Positions 6,957 through 28,979 of a stretch of DNA of 64,000 nucleotides are shown here, piece after piece. The notes below the pieces were generated by a model. That model searched no databases. It had not been told where the DNA came from and saw nothing but the letters and a program-made list of their open reading frames with translations. How positions within the stretch are numbered: the first letter of the stretch is position 1; every line of letters begins with the position of its first letter. The stretch is from NCBI GenBank assembly GCA_036382775.1, contig DASVHD010000041.1, positions 1 through 64,000 on the forward strand, read 5' to 3'. The DNA is from a bacterium (GTDB lineage Bacteria; Hydrothermota; Tepidihabitantia; SM23-42; JAOAFX01). Made by a program: the position numbers and the translations under genes.

Positions 6957-7535
6957 TCATTTCCTAACCCCTTGATCCCCTGATCCCCTAATCCCCATAT
7001 CCCCTTTACTTTTCAGGTATTTCAGCAGACCACCGACACTGATTATTTCCCTTTCCAATTCTGGCATTGGCTCGGTCTTGAGGACCATACCCTGGGTTTC
7101 ATTTTTTATCTCTCCGCGCGCAATATCGATCTCCAGCATGTCGCCGTCATGGATTTTCCGCGCACCCGCAGATTCCAGCGCAGGCAGCGCAGTGTTAACA
7201 CAATTGCGGTGAAAGATGCGCGCCAGGGAAACGGCGATCACCACGCTGATACCAGCGCCATGAATCGCGATCGCCGCGTGTTCGCGTGATGAACCGCAGC
7301 CAAAATTCCGGCCCGCGACAAGGATATCGCCTGGCTTGACGCTTTTAAGGAACTCAGCCCCGCGCTCCGTGCCTTCCATGGCATGACGCGCCATTTCGCT
7401 TTTATCGGTTAACGGAAGGTATTTACCGGGATAGATCTGGTCGGTATCAATATCATCGCCGAACAGCCAGGCCCGACCGCGGATCAACGCGGGCGGCGAC
7501 GCGGACTGACGCGCACGTTTCATCGGCGGCGTCAT
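6957..7535 (-). CDS. leuD: 3-isopropylmalate dehydratase/aconitase family small subunit
   Basis: 192 residues, the swivelling small subunit that completes the active site with the large subunit. Motifs: [16 protein letters not shown] at 26-41 and [14 protein letters not shown] at 75-88, both family hallmarks. The specificity loop after KYL reads YLPL. As I recall, methanogen isopropylmalate isomerase has YLVY and homoaconitase YLRT, so the substrate is not settled by this loop. The ATG overlaps the stop of the large subunit gene (ATGA), giving translational coupling. The C-terminal tail after KYLKSKG is Gly-rich and looks non-homologous. With no leuA in view, citrate/isocitrate remains possible. 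Confidence 0.85.
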
Positions 7536-8788
7536 TCGATCTCCCTGGGATCGGTGATCTTGCCGGTCAGGGCGGTTGCTGCCGCCACGGTCGGAGAAGC
7601 GAGATAGACTTCCGCGCCTTTGCCGAGCTTGCCGATAAAATTCCGGTTTGAGGTCGAGACCATGGTCTCACCGGGCGCAAGGATGCCCGGATGTCCGGTC
7701 GTGCACAGTGCACAACTGGGGTTCGTAACGACCGCGCCGCTTTCGAGAAAAATGTCGTACAGACCGGCTTTGAGCGCTTCCCGGGCAACTTCCATGGTTG
7801 CGGGCACGATGATCAAACGCATACTCTTTTCCACGCGCTTACCTTCGAGGATCCGCGCAGCCAGCTGAAGATCTTCAAGCCGGCCATTGGTGCATGAACC
7901 GATGAAGACCTGGTCGACAGCGGTCCCGGCGACCTCGCCGACGGGTTTGACGTTATCCGGTGAATGTGGGCACGCGACCAGCGGTCCGAGTCCGTCGACG
8001 TCGAACTCGACTGTTTTCTCAAATTTTTCGCCTGAGTCCGAGCTGATCGATCCAATCTTGCCAGGCACCCTGTCTTGGATAAATTTAAGGACTGCGGCAG
8101 AGGGTTCGATAAAACCTATATCACCCGACATTTCGGTCACCATGCTGCAAAGCGTGATCCGCTGAGCCAGCGACAGTGAATCGACCAGAGGACCGGTGAA
8201 TTCGAGGGCGCGGTTAAGCGCACCATCGGTGCCCATTTTTTTTATTATTAAAAGTATTACATCCTTAGCGGTGACATATTCACCAAGTTTACCCTTGATC
8301 ACGATCCTTACCGTTGACGGCACCTTGAACCACAGCCGGCCGCAGTACATGCCGGCGGCAATGTCGGTCGTGCCCATGCCAAAACCTGCCGCGCCAAGCG
8401 CGCCGAGCAAGTTCATATGGCTGTCCGTGCCTACTATGATATCGCCGGGTTTGACCAGACCGTTTTCGAATAGGATGTGCTGACCCACGCCGGTATTAAT
8501 ATCAAAGAGCCGGATGCCCTGGGTACTCGCGAAATCACGCAGCCGCCGTTGGTTCTGGGCGACTTTTTCATCGCGTGCCGGGATATGGAGATCGAAGGTG
8601 ATCGCAACGCGGTCCGGATCGAACACGGGAGAGGAGCCAAAGCTGTTCTGGTATTCTCCAACGACATTGGGTCCGCCAAAATCGCGCATCGCTACGAGAT
8701 CAAGATCGACCCAGATCAGATCGCCCGGCTTCACGGGTCTACCCGAGGCACGGGAGAATATTTTCTCAATGATGGTCATTTGATGCAT
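7532..8788 (-). CDS. leuC: 3-isopropylmalate dehydratase/aconitase family large subunit
   Basis: 418 residues, the iron-sulfur subunit of the two-subunit hydro-lyase, of the shorter archaeal/anaerobe type. The 4Fe-4S ligands are the Cys in IGSCTNGR and the two in NPSCALC (about residues 359 and 362). GTDSHMNLLGALG and the terminal YLASPTVAAATALTG are family signatures. It interconverts hydroxy-acid isomers in leucine, lysine or TCA-type chemistry. An alternative start at 8779 (MTIIEKIF) matches the usual family N-terminus. The upstream gap 8789-8973 is filled with nested repeats. Confidence 0.88.
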   Translation of the reverse strand: MHQMTIIEKIFSRASGRPVKPGDLIWVDLDLVAMRDFGGPNVVGEYQNSFGSSPVFDPDRVAITFDLHIPARDEKVAQNQRRLRDFASTQGIRLFDINTGVGQHILFENGLVKPGDIIVGTDSHMNLLGALGAAGFGMGTTDIAAGMYCGRLWFKVPSTVRIVIKGKLGEYVTAKDVILLIIKKMGTDGALNRALEFTGPLVDSLSLAQRITLCSMVTEMSGDIGFIEPSAAVLKFIQDRVPGKIGSISSDSGEKFEKTVEFDVDGLGPLVACPHSPDNVKPVGEVAGTAVDQVFIGSCTNGRLEDLQLAARILEGKRVEKSMRLIIVPATMEVAREALKAGLYDIFLESGAVVTNPSCALCTTGHPGILAPGETMVSTSNRNFIGKLGKGAEVYLASPTVAAATALTGKITDPREIE

Positions 8789-8821
8789 AAATCCTAAACA
8801 CTAAGCTCTAAAACCTAAATA

Positions 8822-8990
8822 ATATCAAAGCACTAATTTTTCCCCCCCCGCCCTTGCCCTCCCCCTCGAGGGGGGAGGATTTAGGTGGGGGTGAACACTT
8901 GAATTTTGAATTTTGAATTTGTTTATGTCTCATGCTGAGGATTCGACACGAAGCGGGATTTAGCATTTCGGATTTAGAATTTATCTGTTA
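8822..8990 (-). repeat. Nested repeats: AT-rich core element interrupted by a GC-rich palindrome
   Basis: The 38-base core occurs here on the minus strand (8919-8956) with one change from the other copies. The phrase AATATCAAAGCACTAATTTT at 8822-8841, which follows the core directly in copy 1 (2260-2279), is here followed by a diverged GC-rich palindromic unit (8842-8896, centred on CTCGAG). The layout suggests that the palindrome inserted into, or recombined with, an AT-rich element. There is no gene in this 185-base gap. Confidence 0.75.
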
Positions 8991-10065
8991 TCGCTTTCGC
9001 CATTTCCAGGGTCGTTGCCTTGCCGCCCATGTCGTAAGTCCGGACATTGCCTTCTTTAATAACCCGCACGATACCGTTCTCAAGGCGGCGCGCCCGCTCA
9101 TCGTCTCCTAGCCACTCGAGCATCATCCGCGCCGCGAGGATCGTGGCGATCGGATTGACCTTGTACTGACCGGCATATTTGGGTGCGGAACCGTGGGTCG
9201 GTTCGAATACCGCATAATCCACGCCGATATTCCCGCTGGCACCGAACCCCAGTCCGCCCACCATCTGCGCACAGAGGTCGGAAATTATATCACCGTAGAG
9301 ATTGGGTGCCACCAGGGTGTCATAATTAAATGGGTTCTTGAGCAGCCACATCGTAAGCGCGTCGATGTTGGCGTCATCCACATTTATCCCCTTGAATTCT
9401 TTCGCAATGTCATAGAATGTTTCCAGAAAAAGACCGTCGGTCATGCGGACCACGTTCGCTTTATGGACGCAGGTGATCTTTTTGCGCTTGTGCCCGGACG
9501 CGTATTCGAACGCGGCGCGGATTATCCGCTCGCATCCTTTGCGGGTATTGATCTTCATGGAAATGGCGGCGTCGCGCGGCACCTTTTCCATGCCCTTTAT
9601 CCGGAACATTTCGTCGGGTACCGGGAAGAATTCCACGCCCGAATACAGGTCCTCGGTGTTTTCCCGGAAAACCATGAGATCGATGCCTTCCCGGTAATTG
9701 AGCGGATTCCCGGCATATGCTTTGCACGGCCTTTTGCATATGTAAAGATCGAACACCTGGCGCATCCGCACGATCGGGCTGCGGTACACGAACCCTTTGT
9801 TCTGCACCGCCGGCGCCAGCTCCTTGTCCGCCACGCCTCTTGGTTTGGACGTGATCGCTCCGAACATGGCGGAATCGGTCGTTTTCATCATATCGATCGT
9901 CCGCTGGGGCAGCGGGTCGCCTTCGCGGCGCCAGAACTCCCAGCCGATATCGCCGGGTATGTATTCAGCGTCGAACTTGAGCGCGTCCAGCACGATCCTG
10001 GTCGCTTCCAGCACGTCATTGCCTATGCCGTCGCCCGGCAGCCACGCGATCTTGTATTTTGCCAT
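8974..10065 (-). CDS. Isocitrate/isopropylmalate dehydrogenase family protein, isocitrate-like
   Basis: 363 residues of the NAD(P)-dependent decarboxylating dehydrogenase family. PGDGIGNDV opens the protein; FRENTEDLYSGVEF is closer to isocitrate dehydrogenases (RENTED-YAG) than to isopropylmalate dehydrogenases. The substrate loop RSPIVRMRQVFDLY has the Arg pair for the carboxylates. LYGDIISDL and the EPTHGSAP adenine-binding motif are intact. A GGAGG site lies ahead of the ATG. It precedes the LeuC/LeuD-type isomerase genes on the same strand, so the pair may carry out citrate to 2-oxoglutarate or the analogous leucine or homocitrate steps. The isocitrate reading is favoured but not proven. 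Confidence 0.82.
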   Translation of the reverse strand: MAKYKIAWLPGDGIGNDVLEATRIVLDALKFDAEYIPGDIGWEFWRREGDPLPQRTIDMMKTTDSAMFGAITSKPRGVADKELAPAVQNKGFVYRSPIVRMRQVFDLYICKRPCKAYAGNPLNYREGIDLMVFRENTEDLYSGVEFFPVPDEMFRIKGMEKVPRDAAISMKINTRKGCERIIRAAFEYASGHKRKKITCVHKANVVRMTDGLFLETFYDIAKEFKGINVDDANIDALTMWLLKNPFNYDTLVAPNLYGDIISDLCAQMVGGLGFGASGNIGVDYAVFEPTHGSAPKYAGQYKVNPIATILAARMMLEWLGDDERARRLENGIVRVIKEGNVRTYDMGGKATTLEMAKAITDKF

Positions 10066-10132: not shown

Positions 10133-11257
10133 TTAGCCGCTGACGACTTTGCAGCCGTAAATGCGGTATTTTTTATAGATCTTTCCACCCACCTTAAGGA
10201 TCGTATTGTTTATCAGGTAATTATCTTCCAGGGTCCAGGATAGTTCGCCACCGGTGATGCCCATGCGCTGACAGTTCCGGATCGTATCCAGCATCATGCA
10301 CGCTTCGATCCCGAGCTTCTGGTACTGCCGGCGCACGCCCATGATCATCAGGCGAGCCTCCTTTATTTTTTTGCGGTAATAAAGGAATTTCAGCATTTCG
10401 ACCGGACCGAGCCGGCCATTGAGTTTTTTCAAAATGAAATTGTAATCCGGCACCGTCAGTGAAACCGCGGCCGGCTCGCCGTTTATCTCGGCCAGAATAA
10501 CGAGCTCGGGCACAATAAGGTCCTTGAGGTTTTTTGCCAAAAGGTTGAACTCAGCGTCAGTCATCGGCACGAAACCCCAGTTGCGGCTCCACGCGTCATT
10601 GTATATTACCTTGATCCTTTTCACTTCATTGGAAAAATCCGCCATGCTGACCGGCCGGACCTTCAGGTCCTGCACGCGTTTGCGTACGATCGAACACATC
10701 CGTTCCAGGTACTCAAGAGGCCGCCCCTGGGCTTCGATATAAAAAGCGTAGTAGTCCTTTGCCTTTGTCAGGCCGGCGGCCTGGGCAAGCTTATGGTAGT
10801 ACTCAGGCGTATAGGTCATCATGATCATCGGCGGTGAAAAATATCCGTCCAGCAAGAACCCTATCTCCTCGTTGGTCGAGGGGTTCAAGGGGCCGATGAA
10901 TCTATCCATGCCCTTTTCATAATGGTAACGCTTTGTTTCCTCGAAAAGGGCGCGGGCTGCGTCCTCATCATTGTCACATTCGAAAAAGCCGAAATACCCG
11001 GTCTTTTCCTTCCAGAAATCAATAAAGTTGTGATCGATAATCGCGCATATCCTGCCGGCGAGGTTCTTGCCGCGGTATGCCAGGAACATCTCGCGCTCCG
11101 AGTGTTCCCAGAAAGGATTGTGTTTTTTGTCCAGCAGATTCTTGACTTCGCGTTTGAGCGGCGGCACCCAATAACGGTTATTTTTGTATAATGAATAAGG
11201 AAGATCTATGAAATCGTTCAGTTGTTGGTCGGTAGTTACCGGTACGACCTTTATCAT
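10133..11257 (-). CDS. GNAT-fold acyltransferase, candidate bacterial ceramide synthase
   Basis: 374 residues. The N-terminal region (VTTDQQLNDFIDLPYSLYKN, NPFWEHSEREMFLAYRG) and a C-terminal GNAT-like core (MIMGVRRQYQKLGIEACMML, then LSWTLEDNYLINN) match a conserved family of uncharacterised GNAT proteins. As I recall, the Caulobacter ceramide synthase bCerS is a GNAT-fold protein encoded near serine palmitoyltransferase. Here the gene starts only 6 bases after a serine palmitoyltransferase-like gene. If the assignment is right, it would acylate the long-chain amine made by its neighbour. No membrane segment is obvious. The family call is solid; the ceramide role rests on context. Confidence 0.7.
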   Translation of the reverse strand: MIKVVPVTTDQQLNDFIDLPYSLYKNNRYWVPPLKREVKNLLDKKHNPFWEHSEREMFLAYRGKNLAGRICAIIDHNFIDFWKEKTGYFGFFECDNDEDAARALFEETKRYHYEKGMDRFIGPLNPSTNEEIGFLLDGYFSPPMIMMTYTPEYYHKLAQAAGLTKAKDYYAFYIEAQGRPLEYLERMCSIVRKRVQDLKVRPVSMADFSNEVKRIKVIYNDAWSRNWGFVPMTDAEFNLLAKNLKDLIVPELVILAEINGEPAAVSLTVPDYNFILKKLNGRLGPVEMLKFLYYRKKIKEARLMIMGVRRQYQKLGIEACMMLDTIRNCQRMGITGGELSWTLEDNYLINNTILKVGGKIYKKYRIYGCKVVSG

Positions 11258-11263
11258 GTTCTG

Positions 11264-12451
11264 TCAGGATATCATACCGAACGAACGGCCGCAATCTTTG
11301 AATCTTTCAAGTACGATCTTGATATCCTCGTCCGTGTGCGTCGTCATGTAACTCGTCCGGATCAAAGCACGGCCGGGCGGCGTCGCCGGAGACCTCACGG
11401 GGTTAACAAAGATCCCGTTCTCAAAAAGTGCCTTCCAGAACGCAAAGCACTTGTCATCATCACCGATGATCACCGGGATCACGGGCGTTGCACTGTTACC
11501 CGTGTCAAATCCCATTTTTTTAAAACCTTCTCGCACGCGCTCCGTGATCTCCCAGAGCCGCTTGCGTCTTTCCGGTTCGTTCTTTATAATGTTCAGCGCG
11601 GTCTGCGCGCAGATAACCGACGCGGGCGTCATGCTGGCCGAGAAAATGTTCGACCGAGCGGTGTGACGAATATGGGTTATCGCGTCTTTTTCCGCGGCTA
11701 CAAAACCGCCCAGGGACGCAAAGGATTTGCTGAACGTACCCATGATCAGATCGACGTCATCCAGGACCCCGAAATACTCGCTGGCGCCTCTCCCGTGTTT
11801 GCCCATCACGCCTATGCCGTGCGCCTCGTCGACCATGAGACGGCAATGGTATTTCTTTTTGAGCCGCACGATGTCTGACAGCGGCGCCAGATCGCCCTCC
11901 ATGCTGAAGACGCCGTCCACGACAATGAATTTTCCCTTGTTCGCGGGGAGCCCCTTGAGCAGCCTTTCCAGGTCATCGACATCATTGTGGCGGTACTTTT
12001 TCACCTCGGCGAACGACAAACGGCAGCCGTCGATGATGGAAGCATGGTCCTGGCGGTCAATGATAATGATGTCATCCTTGCCCGCGATCGCGGAAATGAT
12101 CCCCAAATTTGTCTGGAAACCGGTGGAAAAGGTTATGGCGCCGTCCTTGTCGAAGAAACGGGCCAGGCTATCCTCGAGACGCACGTGGATGTCGAGCGTG
12201 CCGTTCAAAAAGCGCGATCCCGAACAAGTCACGCCGTATTTTTTTATGGCGTGGATGGCGGCATCCTTCAAACGCGGATCGTTCGCCAATCCCAGGTAAC
12301 CGTTGGAACCGATCATGATGAATTCCCGGTTACCGATCTTAACATGGTGATCCTGGGCCGATTCGATAGGCGTGAAATACGGGTAGATCTGAAGCTCGTG
12401 TGCGCGGTTGACCGCGTCAACCGTCGCTTTGCATTTTTTATAAAGGTCCAT
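11264..12451 (-). CDS. spt: Serine palmitoyltransferase-like alpha-oxoamine synthase
   Basis: 395 residues, a PLP enzyme that condenses an amino acid with an acyl-CoA or acyl-ACP. Lys242 in GTFSKSFASLGG binds PLP, His136 in DRQDHASI stacks on it, and Asp208 in MVDEAH holds its nitrogen. Serine palmitoyltransferase is favoured over glycine C-acetyltransferase by GSRFLNGT, FSTGFQTNLGIIS, YRHNDVDDLE, MEGDLAPL and the NPVRSPATPPG stretch, all of which follow the Sphingomonas enzyme. It would make 3-ketosphinganine, the first sphingolipid intermediate. Its own promoter places the transcript start at or next to the ATG, so translation is predicted leaderless. Confidence 0.85.
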   Translation of the reverse strand: MDLYKKCKATVDAVNRAHELQIYPYFTPIESAQDHHVKIGNREFIMIGSNGYLGLANDPRLKDAAIHAIKKYGVTCSGSRFLNGTLDIHVRLEDSLARFFDKDGAITFSTGFQTNLGIISAIAGKDDIIIIDRQDHASIIDGCRLSFAEVKKYRHNDVDDLERLLKGLPANKGKFIVVDGVFSMEGDLAPLSDIVRLKKKYHCRLMVDEAHGIGVMGKHGRGASEYFGVLDDVDLIMGTFSKSFASLGGFVAAEKDAITHIRHTARSNIFSASMTPASVICAQTALNIIKNEPERRKRLWEITERVREGFKKMGFDTGNSATPVIPVIIGDDDKCFAFWKALFENGIFVNPVRSPATPPGRALIRTSYMTTHTDEDIKIVLERFKDCGRSFGMIS

Positions 12452-12456
12452 AACTC

Positions 12457-12484
12457 AGTATAGCGAATTTTTCGTTTTAGTCAA
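12457..12484 (-). promoter_or_regulatory. Promoter of the sphingolipid gene pair, leaderless
   Basis: On the minus strand TTGACT (12479-12484), 16 bases, then TATACT (12457-12462). Only five bases separate the -10 box from the ATG at 12451, so transcription should begin at or next to the start codon. Confidence 0.8.
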
Positions 12485-26982: not shown

Positions 26983-27907
26983 GATTACCCGCCTTGGCTA
27001 TTCGATAACTGAAATGATCGATACCGGCGGCTCGCCGCGCTTGTTTTTCCGGTGCCGGGAAGGATCAAAAAGCTACATCGCGGTCTTTGATCGCCAGCAC
27101 GGCCGCGAATATCTAAAACTGCAGAAACATCTTTTAAAAGCTGAAGTCGCGGTACCGAAGATCTATCGCGTGCATAGCGATCTGCTGATCACCGAAGACC
27201 TGGGCCGGCGATCATTATTGCGGCTAGCCGCCGAAAGTCCCAGGCGTGCAGTACCGTACTATAAAAAGGCGATTGGGGAACTGATAAAATTTCAGATCAA
27301 AGCTCGGCCCGGTGCGCCCGTCAAGGTTTACTACGACACGAGGCACATTGGATGGGAGCAAAGTTACTTTAAAAAATTTTTTTTGCGCCAGTACATGAAG
27401 CTCCCGCAACAATCGATCAAAGAACTGGACCCGGTTTTCTTAAAACTCAAACTGGATGTAAATAATGCCATAAAACCGGTCACCGGATTCCTGATGCACC
27501 GGGACTTTCAGTCATCGAACATCATGATCAAGGATTCCAAGGTCCGGATCATTGATTTTCAATCCGCCCGCATCGGACCGCTGACCTACGACCTGGCCGC
27601 GTTGCTGCGAGACCCGTACGTGAACATCCCGGCGAGAACCGAACACGTGCTCGTTGATTACTACTTGCGGGCGGTCCGGGTGGCGGCCAGCTGGCTGGAC
27701 ATCGATGAAAACCGGTTCCTGCAGGCTTACCGGCTTTGCGCGGTTCAGCGCCTGCTCCAGGCTCTGGGCGCTTTCGCGAACCTTTCGCTGAATCGGGGCA
27801 AACCGCATTTTGGAAAACATATCAGCCGGGGTATTGAATTTCTAACGCGGTCTTTACGCGGCACTGATTACGAAAAGATCCTGACCGTCATGGAAAGTCA
27901 TGGCTAA
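26960..27907 (+). CDS. amgK: Aminoglycoside-phosphotransferase-fold sugar kinase, AmgK-like
   Basis: About 315 residues. I chose ATG at 26960 over a TTG two codons earlier. Kinase motifs: MHRDFQSSNIMI (catalytic loop, Asp of HRD) and IIDFQSARIGPLTYDLAALL (metal-binding DFQ), the form typical of AmgK, the anomeric MurNAc/GlcNAc 1-kinase of Pseudomonas. It would phosphorylate free MurNAc at C1 for MurU. It overlaps the upstream nucleotidyltransferase gene by 23 bases and the downstream hydrolase gene by 8, so the three are translationally coupled. A choline or aminoglycoside kinase is the alternative, but the context argues against it. Confidence 0.82.
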   Translation: MKGTIADKITRLGYSITEMIDTGGSPRLFFRCREGSKSYIAVFDRQHGREYLKLQKHLLKAEVAVPKIYRVHSDLLITEDLGRRSLLRLAAESPRRAVPYYKKAIGELIKFQIKARPGAPVKVYYDTRHIGWEQSYFKKFFLRQYMKLPQQSIKELDPVFLKLKLDVNNAIKPVTGFLMHRDFQSSNIMIKDSKVRIIDFQSARIGPLTYDLAALLRDPYVNIPARTEHVLVDYYLRAVRVAASWLDIDENRFLQAYRLCAVQRLLQALGAFANLSLNRGKPHFGKHISRGIEFLTRSLRGTDYEKILTVMESHG

Positions 27908-28979
27908 AGACACCAGCGACCTCGACGCAGTGATGAAAGAGAACGTGAATTGCAGGTGTTTTCCATCCGGCGCAGTGATCTGGATCGGCCTGAAGGGGAA
28001 AACGTTTTTTCAGGGAAGTTATGGCTTCTTGCAGGTCGTACCCAGGCGGGAGAAAATGCACTTCCATACGATCTTTGATCTTGCCTCGCTCACCAAACCG
28101 CTGGCTACCGCCATGGCGGTCATGGTGTTACACCAGGAAAAAGTTCTGAAACTGGGTGATCCGGTAAGCAGGTATCTACCTGAATTCCGCGGCCAGCCAA
28201 ACGGCGCAGCATCGCTTGAGGAATTACTAACGCATACCGCCGGGTTGCCGTCCTGGTATCCGCTGTATCTGCTGGGCGGTAATTGCCGGACCGGATATCT
28301 GAGCCGCGCCCATATCCGGGATAAAGCGGTCAATTACTCCTGCCTTGGTTATGTTATTTTAGGCGAAATAATCGCTGAGGTAACCGACATGCGGCTTGAC
28401 CGGTTCTGCCATTCAAGGATATTTAAAAAAGCGCGCCTGAACAATACCTTGTTCTGCCCCGGGGCAAAACCCAGCATCGCTGCCACCGAATTCGGCAACG
28501 AACATGAAAAACAAAAGGTCCGCCGGTACCAGAATAACAAAAACTCTGCCCGGCGGGTTCAGTGGAGAAACTATGTGCTGCGCGGCGAAGTGCACGACGG
28601 CAACTGCTATTATGCATACCGCGGCGTTTCGGGTAATGCCGGTCTTTTCTCCAATGCGACCGACCTTGCGAAATTCTTAAACGCCTACATCAACGGCGAT
28701 GTCGTTAGTATGCAGTCGGTGGCGAACATGACGCGAAACCACACGGGCCGCATGGGTTCCGAGCGCTTCGGTCTGGGCTGGAAAGTCGATATGTACCCCG
28801 GTGCTTTGTCCACGCGGTCATTCGGTCATACCGGGTTCACCGGCACCATGATCTGCGTTGACCCGGCGCGCGAACTCGTGGTCGTGTTCCTTGCCAATAG
28901 CGTCCATCCCCGCGTGCGGCTGGGCATCATGCCCTTGATCAGGAAAAAAATAATCGAATCAGTGGTTAAGGCGATCTGA
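27900..28979 (+). CDS. Serine hydrolase of the class C beta-lactamase/penicillin-binding fold
   Basis: 359 residues. Ser63-Leu-Thr-Lys66 in LASLTKPLAT is the nucleophile motif. The second motif, normally Tyr-x-Asn, reads Tyr146-Ser-Cys148 in NYSCLGYVILGEI; the third is HTG in FGHTGFTG. LLTHTAGLPSW is conserved in the family. Members include peptidoglycan endo- or carboxypeptidases, esterases and AmpC. No signal peptide is seen at this ATG, consistent with a cytoplasmic partner for NamZ, perhaps trimming stem peptides or lactyl-peptide bonds; that role is inferred. The start codon overlaps the kinase gene. A terminator follows. Confidence 0.82.
   Translation: MAKDTSDLDAVMKENVNCRCFPSGAVIWIGLKGKTFFQGSYGFLQVVPRREKMHFHTIFDLASLTKPLATAMAVMVLHQEKVLKLGDPVSRYLPEFRGQPNGAASLEELLTHTAGLPSWYPLYLLGGNCRTGYLSRAHIRDKAVNYSCLGYVILGEIIAEVTDMRLDRFCHSRIFKKARLNNTLFCPGAKPSIAATEFGNEHEKQKVRRYQNNKNSARRVQWRNYVLRGEVHDGNCYYAYRGVSGNAGLFSNATDLAKFLNAYINGDVVSMQSVANMTRNHTGRMGSERFGLGWKVDMYPGALSTRSFGHTGFTGTMICVDPARELVVVFLANSVHPRVRLGIMPLIRKKIIESVVKAI

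Follow-up and report, generated by a model that had tools for sequence, protein, structure and literature searches.

The window analysed here, meaning the whole stretch of 64,000 nucleotides, comes from a genome of 3.06 Mb that is 95.6% complete and whose named relatives belong to WOR-3/Candidatus Stahlbacteria. On the minus strand (Table 1), a gene for a serine palmitoyltransferase (SPT)-like enzyme and a gene for a 374-residue protein of the GNAT type lie in that order, with 6 bases between them. A sequence-only reading of this DNA had described the two genes and the gap between them, with no strand given, and had placed both under a single consensus promoter. Both open reading frames were confirmed, as was the promoter, which matches the consensus at 10 of 12 positions and is not a chance occurrence, because near-identical hexamers lie at the same position upstream of SPT in 12 relatives. 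Since the -10 hexamer is found just before the SPT start codon, the predicted transcript of the pair should be near leaderless. Promoters of this type, with consensus -35 and -10 hexamers and the -10 sited 5–8 nt before the start codon, were seen at 9 of 126 genes, compared with 1 in a shifted control.

The earlier description of a two-gene operon stands with regard to the pair and its promoter, but the transcription unit may extend further, as an Iso_dh gene on the same strand begins 67 bases beyond the GNAT gene, with aconitase-type genes behind it. The same Iso_dh/aconitase gene clusters are located 3' of the pair in WOR-3 relatives (L040–L042) and 5' of SPT in Elusimicrobia (L078), and the best score of the window Iso_dh-family dehydrogenase is to homoisocitrate dehydrogenase, under the cut-off. 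The gene upstream of the pair, as judged by reading its sequence only, resembles adenylosuccinate lyase.

Table 1. Location of the genes and promoter sites discussed in the text.
Feature	Location	Strand	Remarks
SPT-like alpha-oxoamine synthase gene	window 11264..12451	minus	395 aa, PLP lysine K242
Candidate bacterial ceramide synthase gene (YghO/CC_1154-type tandem-GNAT N-acyltransferase)	window 10133..11257	minus	374 aa
Sigma-70-type promoter, TTGACT-16 nt-TATACT	window 12457..12484	minus	TTGACT starts at 12484, TATACT ends at 12457; 5 nt upstream of SPT ATG; leaderless-type
Iso_dh-family dehydrogenase and aconitase-type genes	window 6957-10065	minus	downstream of the SPT-GNAT pair
Leaderless-type promoter sites	window 12457-12484, 24596, 24884; L009 5551; L010 5011, 8850; L135 9415; L136 10240; L153 6860
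Candidate CerR-like reductase gene (NAD-dependent epimerase family)	G000:C34:6018-6995	minus	325 aa
Second YghO/bCerS-family protein	L010:7732-8850 (contig C49 ~27732-28850)	minus	48% identical to operon copy
Third, highly divergent alpha-oxoamine-synthase-like protein	L009:7090-8214	minus	contig C50; 25% to SPT
Divergent LpxC-like protein	L153:5060-5863	plus	contig C35; EH and HxxxD motifs by eye; adjoins LpxD-like gene
PAP2-family membrane protein	L149:7305-8174		genome G011, after SPT-CerS-CerR run

The sequence-only reading had noted SPT-specific motifs. The SPT-like enzyme has the alpha-oxoamine synthase fold with its PLP lysine and stacking histidine, and when it is aligned to solved SPTs the motifs fall into register: K242 lies in GTFSKS, H136 in HASI and D208/H211 in VDEAH, and towards the C-terminus there is VRSPATP. 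Among solved structures it scores 407 bits with Sphingobacterium SPT (3a2b), 320 with 2x8u, and 303 with Sphingomonas SPT, whereas no Kbl/AON synthase chain exceeds 280 bits. The NCBIfam ranking also places an SPT model first. None of the curated NCBIfam SPT cut-offs was reached, however, with 531 bits against 640 for the CFB model, 416 against 500 for the beta model, and 357 against 670 for the alpha model. These equivalog cut-offs are conservative naming thresholds; the window enzyme passes no other equivalog either, and the reference SPTs of Sphingomonas and Parabacteroides exceed their own. In a 57-row tree, built with a quick method, excluding ALAS and CqsA, and limited by long outgroup branches, the enzyme lies within a 50-row clade (SH-aLRT 95) with SPTs of the Sphingomonas and Bacteroidetes types, and this clade leaves out Kbl, BioF and two other alpha-oxoamine synthases of the same genome, in accord with the SPT identity first proposed from sequence. 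One of these two is a true Kbl. A third, highly divergent alpha-oxoamine-synthase-like protein of the genome is encoded on contig C50.

For the 374-residue protein, neither Pfam nor NCBIfam returned a significant family match, and no PDB match was obtained by sequence; Pfam FemAB_like (PF04339) was tried and discarded, as its 14 bits fall short of the cut-off of 27. Its AlphaFold2 model, built from 21 homologues, has a pLDDT of 88, and a Foldseek search of the PDB with this model returned tandem-GNAT proteins, with E-values down to 3.9e-14 and an overall TM of ~0.6 that speaks for fold class only, which agrees with the previous GNAT-type call. When plasmids were searched by tblastn, E. coli YghO aligned to the protein at 31.8% identity and 98% coverage (E 7e-55), and additional homologues were found in Sphingomonas, Roseomonas, Diaphorobacter, Klebsiella, Rubrobacter and Streptomyces. 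Across 108 homologues, 21 residues are conserved at 97% or more, and all 21 are common to the window protein and YghO. The yghO gene (ECD_02850) has been given as the counterpart of Caulobacter CC_1154 (PMC9386255), the bacterial ceramide synthase (bCerS) that is required for dihydroceramide formation in that organism (PMC11324152; PMC11087976). In Caulobacter, lptG2/lptF2 are CC_1155 and CC_1156, numerically next to CC_1154, and the homologue in Sphingomonas and Roseomonas likewise adjoins LptF/LptG and is near spt. It comes directly after LptF/LptG in Roseomonas, with a desaturase gene between in Sphingomonas, and with one other gene between in Diaphorobacter, and an AasR-CerR-ACP-SPT run adjoins it on the E. 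coli and Klebsiella plasmids. Through YghO homology and gene order, on which the assignment to the CC_1154 family is based, the 374-residue protein is placed by sequence in the same family as bCerS, and the relation to this enzyme that the sequence-only reading had suggested is thus upheld. Membership of the family is nonetheless insufficient in itself for ceramide synthase activity, and YghO-type homology need not mean ceramide synthase, because the family has a large SPT-free branch.

With regard to a ceramide reductase, the sequence-only reading was right that none is encoded near the pair, but looking elsewhere in the genome, as it had advised, did yield a candidate for the third gene, on contig C34. 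A profile of SPT-linked epimerases gave this CerR-like protein 290 bits and the next epimerase of the same genome 114, and the score of the candidate rose to 380 bits when its own sequence was part of the profile. In a tree, it groups with the SPT-linked epimerases and apart from those sugar epimerases of the genome whose branches are about as long; two very long branches defied placement. It is unlinked to the SPT-GNAT pair and only 30–35% identical to the linked CerRs of the phylum. HpnA and OleD were considered as identities for it and rejected, since it scores 96 bits with the former (cut-off 368) and 89 bits with the latter (cut-off 580).

We surveyed 147 genomes of the phylum, calling SPT at 420 bits or more, with a clear gap to other synthases at 357 or less, and CerR at 200 bits or more. 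SPT is present in 79 genomes, in 59 of which a GNAT gene lies within 1.5 kb of it (within 150 bases in 56), and only 2 of the 79 are devoid of any GNAT homologue. CerR was detected in 60 of the 79 SPT genomes as opposed to 12 of the 68 others, which gives a Fisher p of 8e-13 without correction for relatedness. Conversely, 13 of the 59 genomes with the SPT-GNAT pair, some of them incomplete, have no CerR at this threshold, and 12 genomes have CerR without SPT. Across 80 named homologue loci, SPT and the GNAT gene are found side by side in about half, in taxa that include WOR-3, Elusimicrobia, Endomicrobium, Nitrospirae, Geobacter, Acidobacteria, Planctomycetes, Gemmatimonadota, Caldiserica and Myxococcota, and an epimerase gene often adjoins SPT; Rubrobacter and Streptomyces plasmids carry SPT-GNAT-epimerase runs. 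An apparent GNAT-SPT fusion in Myxococcota was put down to long high-GC reading frames that overlap in different frames, and hence regarded as an artefact. Within the phylum, one genome, WOR-3 G011, has SPT, CerS and CerR contiguous, and a PAP2-family membrane protein, possibly a head-group enzyme, is encoded after this run.

Taken with the family assignments, this linkage and co-occurrence support the ceramide-type pathway proposed by the sequence-only reading, its product being a prediction from genes. It is very probable that the products of the pair, SPT and a bCerS-type protein, catalyse the first two steps of bacterial ceramide synthesis, with CerR unlinked in the same genome. We infer the substrates, step order, product and membrane location of this pathway as follows. 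SPT, a PLP enzyme, would form a 3-keto long-chain base by condensing a fatty acyl thioester with an amino acid, for which L-serine is the likeliest candidate. The YghO/bCerS-type tandem-GNAT protein would N-acylate this base with a second fatty acyl group; the CerR encoded on contig C34 would then reduce the 3-keto group, giving a dihydroceramide-type membrane lipid. Acylation is put ahead of reduction here because this order was argued for Caulobacter (PMC11087976), where other authors have proposed the reverse. Acyl groups could possibly be supplied by the one FabB/F-type beta-ketoacyl synthase and the three AMP-binding enzymes in the genome, and no gene for a specialised ACP or acyl-ACP synthetase (acpR/aasR) was found beside spt at the window locus.

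As the SPT is under every curated cut-off, serine is put forward only as the most likely substrate, ahead of alanine and glycine. Use of alanine or glycine by SPT leads to 1-deoxy products, and the same pathway could thus be making 1-deoxy-(dihydro)ceramides if the window enzyme preferred one of these amino acids. Alanine is a known alternative SPT substrate, and 1-deoxysphingolipids were reported to be abundant in euxinic water (PMC11334938). We nevertheless deem this option improbable, given that the closest of all solved structures is a serine-using SPT, that the active-site motifs are of the SPT type, and that no sequence feature among those tested favours alanine. Even less probable, in our opinion, is that the synthase is Kbl, BioF or a cysteate fatty acyltransferase, with the GNAT protein acylating some other amine, for instance in sulfonolipid or biotin metabolism. 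The fold and the PLP motifs are indeed common to all alpha-oxoamine synthases, and the HMMs for bioF and glycine C-acetyltransferase score well (390 and 376 bits), but the SPT model tops them at 531, a solved cysteate enzyme reaches 239 bits against the 407 of SPT, and the genes keep company with YghO/bCerS and CerR homologues. Furthermore, the genome encodes a true Kbl of its own (617 bits, Kbl cut-off 493), so the window synthase is not needed in that capacity. The identities as Kbl, BioF or cysteate transferase were rejected on these bit scores, the tree and the separate Kbl.

A different question is whether the ceramide N-acylation might be carried out by another protein, such as the second family member of this genome, encoded on contig C49, while the operon GNAT copy has drifted to a different role. 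The existence of this paralogue, and of an SPT-free branch in the family, would allow for it. However, in a tree of 108 GNAT homologues, where SPT-adjacent and non-adjacent proteins are strongly clustered (13 changes compared with 34 in shuffles), the operon copy sits in the SPT-linked part and the paralogue in a 26-row clade (SH-aLRT 97) with no SPT-adjacent member, and nearly all relatives at order level retain SPT beside the operon copy. We thus give a drifted operon copy very little credence and retain the operon protein as the candidate ceramide synthase.

The SPT-free clade, as sampled by its 26 members, spans WOR-3, Aminicenantes, Zixibacteria, Cloacimonadota, Geobacter, Planctomycetes and Clostridia. 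We tentatively raise the possibility, which we consider somewhat less probable than the contrary, that this subfamily is an unrecognised N-acyltransferase for another acylated amine lipid, in which case the organism would make ceramides and a second N-acyl lipid through sister enzymes. A missing SPT neighbour alone is no proof of another function, because some other SPT-free rows nest in SPT-linked clades. Among the 108 homologues, no residue separates SPT-linked from SPT-free proteins at 75% contrast. The C49 paralogue adjoins an FAD amine-oxidase-type protein.

The three enzyme families of the window genome are those of Caulobacter (Spt CC_1162, bCerS CC_1154 and the periplasmic CerR CC_1164) and of E. 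coli BL21, where ECD_02854, yghO and ECD_02852 are the counterparts and YghO is a full-length homologue of the window GNAT protein. Unlike in these two organisms, however, SPT and CerS are directly adjacent here, CerR is unlinked, and the specialised acpR/aasR genes are lacking beside spt. The Rhodobacterial SPT system also has acpR and aasR next to spt, while the window locus has instead the Iso_dh, aconitase and adenylosuccinate lyase-like genes. By its scores (531 versus 357 bits), the window SPT is nearer to the Bacteroidetes type than to the alphaproteobacterial one. The Bacteroidetes SPTs (Sphingobacterium 3a2b and the Parabacteroides and Prevotella homologues) provide the closest solved SPT and the closest curated model, and fall in the same broad clade. 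The window enzyme differs from them in lying below the SPT-CFB cut-off and in adjoining a YghO-type GNAT gene, of which none is annotated in the 3 kb surrounding the Parabacteroides SPT gene. A 'Spt-like' clade from uncultured Black Sea bacteria likewise comprises divergent SPT homologues whose hosts were inferred to make sphingolipids (PMC11334938).

Ceramide lipids had been put forward by the sequence-only reading as notable for an uncultivated lineage, but this is not very surprising, as SPT-like genes were already reported in 38 phyla by a 2024 survey (PMC11334938). What we describe is a known pathway in a WOR-3 lineage, predicted from genes, and more complete than previously described. 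Neither WOR-3 nor Stahlbacteria is named in the main text of that survey, and our search of the open-access literature turned up no paper that connects WOR-3 to serine palmitoyltransferase or Stahlbacteria to sphingolipids, so that a concrete ceramide gene set is now predicted for this group. The adjacency of SPT and bCerS also emerges as conserved across many uncultured phyla, namely Elusimicrobia and termite-gut Endomicrobium, Acidobacteria, Planctomycetes, Gemmatimonadota and Caldiserica. Because neither Pfam nor NCBIfam detects the bCerS proteins tested, annotation pipelines will miss such proteins.

Replacement of lipid A by sphingolipids was also considered and is not supported. The genome encodes a divergent LpxC-like protein next to an LpxD-like gene, as well as two LptF/LptG proteins, so sphingolipids need not replace lipid A, which the organism, judging by these genes, may make as well. 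Several genomes gave no LpxC match; in the window's class the matches stay at or below 221 bits, mostly under 190, and elsewhere in the phylum they reach up to 342.
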